Positions 38,113 to 41,784 of a stretch of 41,784 bases of DNA are shown one piece after another. A program made the position numbers and the translations under genes. Source of the DNA: Gemmatimonadaceae bacterium (GTDB lineage Bacteria; Gemmatimonadota; Gemmatimonadetes; Gemmatimonadales; Gemmatimonadaceae); the NCBI GenBank assembly GCA_019745365.1, contig JAIETI010000096.1, forward strand, positions 1 through 41,784, given 5' to 3'. The stretch's first letter is position 1; every line of letters begins with the position of its first letter. The notes beneath the pieces are model-generated. The model did not search any database. It saw only the letters and a list, made by a program, of their open reading frames with translations, and was not told where the DNA came from.

Positions 38113-38493
38113 ATGACCCGCTCCGTCCGCCTCTCCATCGCCCTGTACGCGCTCGCGACCATCGCGGGCGCGGTGATCGGCGTCGCCCTCGACCGCACCG
38201 TGCTGGAGAAGGATCGCCGGCGCCGTGGCTTCGACCAGCGGTCGATGCGAGCGATGCTCTATCGCGACCTCAAGCTGACCCCGACGCAGGAAGCGCAAGT
38301 CGATTCGATCCTCGATGACCGCTCCGCGCAGCAGCGCGCGCTGATGGCACCCCTCGCGCCGCAGATGGACTCGATCGTGCTCCGCGCCCGCGGACGCATC
38401 TCTGCGATCCTCACCCCGGAACAGCGGGCCACCTACGAACAGATGCAGCGCGAGCAGGAACGCTCGCGGCGCGCTCGGCAGGAGAAGCGATGA
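38113..38493 (+). CDS. Spy/CpxP-like periplasmic protein (LTxxQ type)
   Basis: 126 aa with an N-terminal signal or anchor helix (about 7-27, LSIALYALATIAGAVIGVALD) and a helical periplasmic domain. The two diagnostic stretches are DLKLTPTQEAQVDSILDDR and SAILTPEQRATYEQMQ, as in Spy, CpxP and heavy-metal resistance CnrX-like proteins, which act as chaperones or stress sensors. Placement between the sigma/anti-sigma pair and the efflux genes fits an envelope-stress role. Its ATGA overlaps the TolC start. Confidence 0.82.
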   Translation: MTRSVRLSIALYALATIAGAVIGVALDRTVLEKDRRRRGFDQRSMRAMLYRDLKLTPTQEAQVDSILDDRSAQQRALMAPLAPQMDSIVLRARGRISAILTPEQRATYEQMQREQERSRRARQEKR

Positions 38494-39794
38494 CCCGTCG
38501 CCGGACCCTTGGCGTTCTGATCACCCTCGCGAGCGGCGCCCTCCGCGCGCAGACGGGCGATGCCCGCGCGATCACGCTCGACGAGGCGGTACGCCTCGCC
38601 CAGCAGAACGCGCCGCAGGCGGTGCAGGCCCGCAACGCGGTGCGCACCGGTGGTGCCGCGCTCCGTACCGCGCGCTTCGCCTACGCCCCGACGCTGAACG
38701 TCACTGCGAACACCGCGAAGCAGGGCGGCGAGACCTTCTTCCAAGGGCAGCTCGTCCCCTTCCGCGGGGATCCGTGGTCGTACTCGAAGGGCGTGACGTC
38801 CCAGCTCGAGCTCTTCGACGGCGGACGCCGCTGGTTCAATCTCAAATCCGCGAACGCGAACCTCGACGCGGCCGATGCGTCCGAGACGCTGCAGCGCTAT
38901 CAGGTCGCGCTCTCGGTGAAGCAGCAGTACTTCGCCGCGCTCGCGGCGCGCGAAGCCCAGGCCGCTGCAGCCGCGCAGTTCGCGCAGGCCGACGCGCAGT
39001 TCAAGGTGGCCGCCGCCCGCGTGAAGGCCGGCGCCGCGACGATCTCCGACTCGCTCCGATCCGAGATCACCGTCGGTAATGCGCGTCTTGCCGCGCTCAA
39101 CGCGCAGAATGACCTGCGCAATGCCAACGCCGCGCTGACGCGACTCGTCGCCTCGACCACGACGGTGACGGCGATCGCCGGCGACACGGCCGAGATCGCA
39201 GGTATCGCGCTCGATGACGCCGCACTCGCCGCGCTCGTGGAACAGGGTCCGTCGGTGCGGAGCGCCGCCGCCGCGTTCGCCGCCGCGCGCGCCGGACGCA
39301 AGGCCGCGATCGCGCCGTACATGCCGACGATGAACCTGAGCTACAGTCTCAACGGCAACGCCGCGTCGCAGCGCTTCGACCCCACGGGGCGTCCCTTCGC
39401 CGCGCAGAACGCGACCCGCGTCACGCTCAACTTCCCGCTCTTCAACGGCTTCCAGCGCGAAGAGACGTACACCCGCACGAGCGTGGCTGAGCAGAACGCG
39501 GAAGCACAGTTCCGCGACGCGAAACTCCTCGCGCTCCAACAGCTCACGCAATTCCTCGGCGCGTTCCGCACCGCCGAACAGCGGGTGCTGATCCAGCAGG
39601 CCTCGATCGCCTCGGCACTCGAGGATGTGCGTGTGCAACAACGGCGCTACGAGCTCGGCGCCGCGACCATCCTCGAGATCGCTGTCTCGCAGGCCACTCT
39701 CAACAGCGCGCGCGCCGGTCTGATCTCGGCGCGTTTCGACGCCCGCGTGGCGAAGGCGCAGATCGAGGCCCTCGTCGGCCGCGACCTCAAGTGA
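38490..39794 (+). CDS. TolC-family outer membrane efflux protein of the RND operon
   Basis: 434 aa; signal peptide ends GALRAQ. OEP repeats: AITLDEAVRLAQQNAPQAVQ at the start, GVTSQLELFDGGRRWFN, a long coiled-coil (about 125-210), then VTLNFPLFNGFQREETYTRT in the second repeat and a second coiled-coil ending VAKAQIEALVGRDLK. It is the outer membrane exit duct. The start overlaps the Spy-like gene and the adaptor gene follows within 9 nt, so these form one efflux unit; the inner membrane pump would lie beyond the window. Confidence 0.93.
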   Translation: MTRRRTLGVLITLASGALRAQTGDARAITLDEAVRLAQQNAPQAVQARNAVRTGGAALRTARFAYAPTLNVTANTAKQGGETFFQGQLVPFRGDPWSYSKGVTSQLELFDGGRRWFNLKSANANLDAADASETLQRYQVALSVKQQYFAALAAREAQAAAAAQFAQADAQFKVAAARVKAGAATISDSLRSEITVGNARLAALNAQNDLRNANAALTRLVASTTTVTAIAGDTAEIAGIALDDAALAALVEQGPSVRSAAAAFAAARAGRKAAIAPYMPTMNLSYSLNGNAASQRFDPTGRPFAAQNATRVTLNFPLFNGFQREETYTRTSVAEQNAEAQFRDAKLLALQQLTQFLGAFRTAEQRVLIQQASIASALEDVRVQQRRYELGAATILEIAVSQATLNSARAGLISARFDARVAKAQIEALVGRDLK

Positions 39795-39802
39795 GGAAGA
39801 TG

Positions 39803-41784
39803 ATGACCCCCAAGCGCAATCGCCCGTCCGTCCTGTCGTTCCTGTCCCTCCTGTCCTTCCTAGGAGCAGCCGCAGGCTGCTCCAAAAAACCCGAAGCCAA
39901 GGCGACCATCTCCACCGCAGCCGTGGCGCGCCGCGACATCGTCGTGGACGCTGAGGCCACGGGCATCATCGAACCGATCAACGTGGTCGAGGTGAAGAGC
40001 CGCGCGTCGGGGCAGATCACCAAGATGCCGGTCGAGACGGGGACGCAGGTGAAGAACGGCGATCTCATCGTCGAACTCGACAAACGCGATCTACAGAACA
40101 GCTACGAGCAGACCAACGCCGACCTCGAGGCCGCGCAGGCGCGCATCGCGACGACGCAGGCGCAGAAGAAGCGCGCCGACGATCTCTTCGCGCAGCGCAT
40201 CATGACGGCGCAGGAGCATGAGGCGGCGATCCTCGACCTTGCGAACGCGCAGGCCGGTGTCATCCGTGCGCGCACCAACATGGACATCGCGCTGCAGCGG
40301 TTGGAGGACGCGACCGTGATCGCGCCCGTGGCCGGCACGGTGATCGACAAGCCCGTCTCGCTCGGGCAGGTCATTCAGAGCGGCACGGGGAGCATGGGTG
40401 GCGGCACGACCATCATCAAGATGGCCGACCTCTCCCGCGTCCGCGCACGCGCGCTCGTCAACGAGACCGACATCGGGCAGGTGACGGCTGGGCAGAGCGC
40501 GACGGTGACCGTCGATGCGTATCCGGATCGCCCCTTCCGCGGCACGGTGGAGAAGATCGAGCCGCAGGCGACCGTACAGCAGAACGTGACGATGTTCCCC
40601 GTGCTCATCTCGCTCGATAACAGCGACGGGCTGCTGAAGCCCGGGATGAACGGCGAGGTCTCGATCCTCGTGGAGCGGCACGATCAGGTGCTCGCGATCC
40701 CGAACGACGCGATCCGCAGCGTGCGTGAGGCGCGTCAGGCAGCGGCGTTGCTCAACCTCGACCCCGATAGCGTGAGTGCGCAGCTGCGGAGCGCCTTCGG
40801 CGGCGGATTCGGTGGTGGAAACGGTGTCGGTCGCGGTGGCCCCAATGGCGGCCGTCCGCAGACGCAGACGGCGCACGGTCTCGTGGACCTCGACGCACTC
40901 CAAGGCCCGGGCGGCCCCGGCGGCGGATTCCAGATGCCCGACGTGACCGACGCCGACTGCAAGAAGGTCGACGACGCGATGAAGAAGAAGCCGGCCGTCA
41001 AGAAGAAGATCGACGATCTCCGCGAGCAGATGCGGAGCGGCGGGGGCTTCAATCCGGACATGATGGCCCAGATGCGGACGCTGTACACCGAACTCGGCGT
41101 CGATGCTGGCATCGTGCGTGCCTGCGGGCGCCGCAATGGTGGGGGCGGCAACGGCGGCGGCGATCGCGCGGGTGCCGGCGGCGGGAATGGTGCTGGCAAC
41201 GGTGGTGGCAATGGCGGCGGCGCGCGCGCGCAACGCGGTGGTGCGCCCGATGGCGCGGCAACGCCGGTCCCGGTCGCACCGGGTGGCGGTCGCCAGCGCT
41301 CGCGCTCCGCGCTCGTCTTCGTCCAGCGCGCTGACTCCACCTGGGAGCCGCGTGTGATCCGCGCCGGTATCGCGAACTACGACTACACCGAAGTCCTCGA
41401 CGGCCTGAAGGAAGGCGAGAAGGTTGCGATGCTCTCCGCCGCCGCGCTGCAGGCCGCGCGTCAGCAGCAGAACGATCGCTTCCGCTCCATGGCTGGTGGC
41501 CCCCTCGGGGGCTCGCAACAGCCTGGTCGCGGTGGTGCGCCCGGTGGTGGTGGCGGTGGTGGTGCTTTCCCAGCTACTGCTCACGATACCCACGCTCTTT
41601 TTTGCGATTCTGGAAATAACGCAATATGGAAAGTCAATTTACACGATGGTCACCTCAGCATCCTTGCCGGAGGCAACGGAAAAGGTTCTCGTGATGGGAG
41701 CTGCGATTCTGTCCAATTTAACTTTCCTATTGCAATATGTTTTGGGGGTGAAAAGGGTGACTCGGTTAACCAAAACTCTATCTT
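39803..41784 (+). CDS. Efflux periplasmic adaptor (HlyD/MFP family) lipoprotein, 3' end replaced or cut
   Basis: Membrane-fusion protein linking an inner membrane pump to TolC. ATG at 39803 has GAGGA 5 nt upstream (ATG 39800 is the alternative). Lipobox LGAAAGC, then the barrel-sandwich strand VVEVKSRASGQITKMPVETG, a coiled-coil hairpin (LEAAQARIATTQAQKKRADD), DATVIAPVAGTVIDKPVSLG and the beta-barrel (VTVDAYPDRPFRGTVEKIEP). About residues 310-500 are an unusual Gly/Asn/Arg-rich insert containing a Lys-rich helical part with Cys 386 and Cys 441. The membrane-proximal domain (VFVQRADSTWEPRVIRAGIA) follows. No stop occurs before the window end: the frame runs from a poly-Gly stretch into NHL-repeat sequence at about 41571, very likely foreign. 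Confidence 0.85.
   Translation, partial: MTPKRNRPSVLSFLSLLSFLGAAAGCSKKPEAKATISTAAVARRDIVVDAEATGIIEPINVVEVKSRASGQITKMPVETGTQVKNGDLIVELDKRDLQNSYEQTNADLEAAQARIATTQAQKKRADDLFAQRIMTAQEHEAAILDLANAQAGVIRARTNMDIALQRLEDATVIAPVAGTVIDKPVSLGQVIQSGTGSMGGGTTIIKMADLSRVRARALVNETDIGQVTAGQSATVTVDAYPDRPFRGTVEKIEPQATVQQNVTMFPVLISLDNSDGLLKPGMNGEVSILVERHDQVLAIPNDAIRSVREARQAAALLNLDPDSVSAQLRSAFGGGFGGGNGVGRGGPNGGRPQTQTAHGLVDLDALQGPGGPGGGFQMPDVTDADCKKVDDAMKKKPAVKKKIDDLREQMRSGGGFNPDMMAQMRTLYTELGVDAGIVRACGRRNGGGGNGGGDRAGAGGGNGAGNGGGNGGGARAQRGGAPDGAATPVPVAPGGGRQRSRSALVFVQRADSTWEPRVIRAGIANYDYTEVLDGLKEGEKVAMLSAAALQAARQQQNDRFRSMAGGPLGGSQQPGRGGAPGGGGGGGAFPATAHDTHALFCDSGNNAIWKVNLHDGHLSILAGGNGKGSRDGSCDSVQFNFPIAICFGGEKGDSVNQNSI
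39831..39857 (+). repeat. 9-bp tandem repeat TCCTGTCNN x3 in the adaptor signal peptide
   Basis: Units TCCTGTCGT, TCCTGTCCC and TCCTGTCCT follow each other exactly and keep frame, encoding the LSFLSLLSFL core of the lipoprotein signal. Preceded by TCCGTCCG, which resembles a further diverged unit. Confidence 0.85.
39863..39883 (+). repeat. Perfect 9-bp inverted repeat GGAGCAGCC-GCA-GGCTGCTCC at the lipobox
   Basis: This hairpin-forming palindrome lies directly after the 9-bp tandem repeats and encodes GAAAGCS, including the lipidated Cys. It is followed by AAAAAA. Such a strong stem next to short tandem repeats looks like a REP-type dispersed element that has become coding, which is an inference. 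Confidence 0.7.
41571..41784 (+). other. Foreign-looking, lower-GC terminal segment encoding NHL repeats (probable chimeric join)
   Basis: From just after the poly-Gly codons (41543-41563) the base composition falls to roughly 45% G+C and codons change to A/T-ending ones (ttt, aat, ata, tct). The frame encodes HALFCDSGNNAIWKVNLHDG, then HLSILAGGNGKGSRDGSCDS, then VQFNFPIAICFGG, the NHL beta-propeller pattern. No other gene in the window has this composition. The join lies in a simple GGT/GGC repeat, a classic place for misassembly. The donor may be a eukaryote or a low-GC bacterium. Confidence 0.8.

Follow-up and report, generated by a model that had tools for sequence, protein, structure and literature searches.

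The last ~220 bp of contig C8, where an efflux adaptor runs on into an NHL-like segment, are almost certainly a chimeric contig end produced by the metagenome assembler and not part of a real fusion. The window analyzed here is the whole of this contig (41,784 bp), with position 41784 as its final base, and it belongs to a 2.83-Mb assembly of 193 contigs, a Gemmatimonadota-like metagenome genome whose nearest relatives are Gemmatimonadota metagenome genomes. We favor a misjoin because the orthologs of the adaptor lack the NHL segment, because the neighboring gene of the operon is found on another contig (C46) and because other contigs of the same assembly display foreign ends.

Composition and coding content at the contig end

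The foreign low-GC segment occupies 41563..41784 on the plus strand, with 45% GC and a GC3 of 0.38, and encodes about one NHL-type repeat that matches SOQ1 (see below) and is absent from the adaptor orthologs. Measured over 41564-41784 (221 bp), GC stands at 45.2%, as against 71.4% in the preceding 563 bp and 69.1% in the whole window, and GC3 drops from 0.84 to 0.38 across the join, which bears out the original observation of a sharp switch in GC and codon usage within a poly-Gly stretch. Elsewhere in the window, no 214-bp stretch falls below 55.6% GC, and across 81 contigs of the same genome about 0.02% of the interior 214-bp stretches are as AT-rich as this tail. The comparison of the two sides by composition, which had been put forward as a check, gives a clear break: under a third-order Markov model of the host genome, the change point is 41562, inside a (GGT)7-like repeat delimited by Tandem Repeats Finder at 41543..41564 (plus strand). 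The join, with its sharp compositional difference between the two sides, sits in a simple repeat, i.e., in sequence that can be shared by chance.

Searched alone, as had also been proposed, the translated tail matches the NHL propeller of the plant protein SUPPRESSOR OF QUENCHING 1 (SOQ1) with a whole-sequence phmmer E-value of 1.7e-8, a value summed over several repeats that are each weak individually. Neither the reversed sequence of the tail nor its other open frame yields anything comparable to the SOQ1 match, and no Pfam model reaches threshold on the tail. That other open frame, a hydrophobic reading, was considered as the real frame and rejected, as it has no match. Relative to the SOQ1-type NHL beta-propellers, the tail is alike in matching the NHL repeats of the plant protein but differs in having only about one repeat unit, below the Pfam threshold; the matched unit is SOQ1-like, and any remainder of a propeller would lie past the end of the contig. 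Of the claim that NHL repeats continue in frame from an RND adaptor, the in-frame and NHL-like parts stand, but the plural does not, there being about one repeat, and the adaptor is MacA-like with a MacB partner. The run-on in frame is unremarkable because the tail is open in two of its three forward frames, in keeping with the suggestion that the continuation could be due to chance.

The efflux operon and its continuation on another contig

Upstream of the join lies host sequence belonging to an efflux operon. Its first gene (38490..39794, plus strand) is a 434-aa ORF that codes for a TolC-like outer-membrane efflux protein, and the relatives L086 and L002 have, at the equivalent position, an ORF of equal length and closely similar sequence. 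The second gene (39791..41562, plus strand) codes for a MacA-like periplasmic adaptor, a membrane fusion protein of the HlyD/CusB type (Pfam HlyD_D23, E=9e-25; HlyD_3, E=1e-18), with orthologs that are ~50-64% identical across Gemmatimonadota. Its Gly-rich C-terminal tail is truncated by the predicted misjoin, and the frame that begins at 39791 stays open through the last codon of the contig, giving a 664-aa frame with no stop. The adaptor has the HlyD/CusB barrel-sandwich domain and adjoins TolC and MacB genes, the latter via C46; because its partner is a MacB-type permease, it belongs, as a MacA-like adaptor, to an ABC-type tripartite system and is not an RND adaptor. Between the core and the C-terminal part of the protein, at 40800-41290, there is a long, low-complexity insertion rich in Gly, Asn and Arg, and insertions of a similar kind are present in Gemmatimonadota orthologs.

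To place the end of the adaptor, we compared the tails of 35 of its best orthologs from other genomes, 32 of which have a readable stop while three run off their contigs. In all 32, a short tail rich in Gly, Pro and Arg closes the protein shortly beyond the position where the frame of the window turns foreign, and none of these 32 displays an adaptor-NHL fusion. When the whole 664-aa frame was searched against 41 genomes, the matches listed end at ~residue 600 or earlier, except for that in the window's own genome. A search of 297 other genomes of the same phylum did not recover the NHL peptide, a result that, along with the 32 orthologs, upholds the original view that a natural fusion is improbable; elsewhere in its own genome, the peptide has noise-level matches only. 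Searches of viral contigs, and of plasmids at the protein level, gave no donor of the tail, and a search among phages at the DNA level returned only short matches at chance level.

In 28 of 31 relatives (e.g., L086 and L002), the adaptor stop is followed within a few tens of bases by the start of a MacB-like permease, and this start is conserved as M, a short segment with ET or EI and then ALGALRANK. The best match to this permease in the window's own genome is 77% identical and lies at the very start of C46 (C46:84-1283), with PadR- and Kup-type genes further along the same contig, as in L002. Hence, the true continuation of the operon is found elsewhere in the assembly, and the stretch between the two contigs is missing. 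Taken across C8 and C46, and also in the relatives, the order of TolC-like protein, MacA-like adaptor and MacB-like permease is the same as in the MacA-MacB-TolC tripartite efflux operons. Classical MacB is longer than the permease frame of L002 (407 aa), which begins near the first membrane segment; the ATPase domain would therefore need to be encoded elsewhere.

No exact overlap is seen between the end of C8 and the start of C46, and a short gap remains. From orthology and synteny, and not from shared sequence, we conclude that the two contigs were neighbors, with the remainder of the Gly-rich tail between them. Ahead of the MacB core, the start of C46 (L125, 1-95) is unlike the conserved MacB N-terminus of the relatives. 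Upstream of ALGALRANK, C46 reads PIRQSSSNRVEFTRRFVIHSDNDRRAS..., which matches no relative. These ~90 bp probably represent another false extension at this gap in the assembly, and both sides of the gap appear to carry unrelated extensions.

Foreign ends on other contigs

We surveyed the assembly by sampling 81 of its 193 contigs by region, which covers 142 contig ends (for 20 long contigs, the near end only). Five of the 142, including the end of C8, lie under the 1% compositional level of contig interiors, as against 1.4 expected, and three lie under the 0.1% level; the Markov measure selects the identical five ends. The first ~180 bp of C84 (L165, 1-180) are compositionally unlike the host genome. 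At the start of C101 (L182, 1-120), a TA/TG microsatellite of ~100 bp, with 16% GC over the first 100 bp, is followed by a run of 11 G and then by host sequence, and this is another chimeric end. So is the start of C17 (L202, 1-110), where ~90 bp of unrelated AT-rich DNA are followed by a poly-C run and then by host sequence. Homopolymers of at least 11 are found just twice in 1.2 Mb of contig-interior sequence. The start of C1 (L187, 1-240) has a lower-GC coding sequence, presumably sucC-like (an assignment read from its translation), which grades into host-like sequence within the same gene and has the look of a chimera between species that falls within a conserved gene. Judging from these ends of C8, C101, C17 and C1, this assembly has a recurrent fault, namely the attachment of foreign tails at low-complexity sequence. 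Together with the SOQ1-like NHL match, the microsatellite tails suggest that eukaryotic DNA was in the sample, and the NHL segment itself is probably of eukaryotic origin.

These observations bear on a different reading, in which foreign DNA, such as a low-GC mobile element, is truly inserted in the adaptor gene in part of the population and the contig ends at the strain variant. A polymorphic insertion would break the contig at exactly this point, and the composition of the tail is foreign; however, the phage, plasmid and viral searches have no match, the sequence of the tail is that of a repeat from inside an NHL domain and not that of an element's end, the break falls within a simple repeat and microsatellite tails are found on unrelated contig ends, so that we regard such an insertion as very improbable.

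A chimeric join in place of a fusion

A genuine, lineage-specific fusion in which an NHL propeller, horizontally acquired in this one genome, follows the C-terminus of a MacA-like adaptor would account for the continuous frame across the join and the NHL-like tail, but it is still less credible than an insertion: an open frame means little in a tail that is open in two of three forward frames, no ortholog with a readable stop has an NHL tail, the composition shifts inside a simple repeat, the NHL sequence lies at the very end of the contig, the next gene of the operon opens another contig and foreign ends occur on further contigs of this assembly. The chimeric contig end agrees with the original proposal of a misjoin in the GGT/GGC repeat, with the break at 41562 inside that repeat, orthologs free of the tail, MacB on C46 and similar foreign tails on other contigs. 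C8 resembles known chimeric metagenome contigs in that its composition and coding content shift abruptly at a low-complexity repeat near a contig end, and in having its true neighbor on a different contig; it differs from them in nothing notable, as the run-on in frame merely mimics a protein fusion.

As for the assembler step itself, C8 tracks the TolC-MacA-MacB efflux operon of Gemmatimonadota as far as the Gly-rich C-terminus of the adaptor, where, we infer, the assembler used the GGT/GGC repeat to cross into unrelated DNA of lower GC that encodes an NHL-repeat protein and was probably donated by a eukaryote in the sample. In reality, the adaptor gene goes on for a few tens of Gly-rich codons to its stop, and the MacB-like permease found at the start of C46 comes next.

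There is, accordingly, no biology to draw from the adaptor-NHL fusion. Since several contig ends in this assembly are foreign, genes that lie within ~250 bp of a contig end are not to be trusted here. The case stands as a caution that in-frame joins at Gly-rich repeats can yield convincing false fusion proteins at contig ends.
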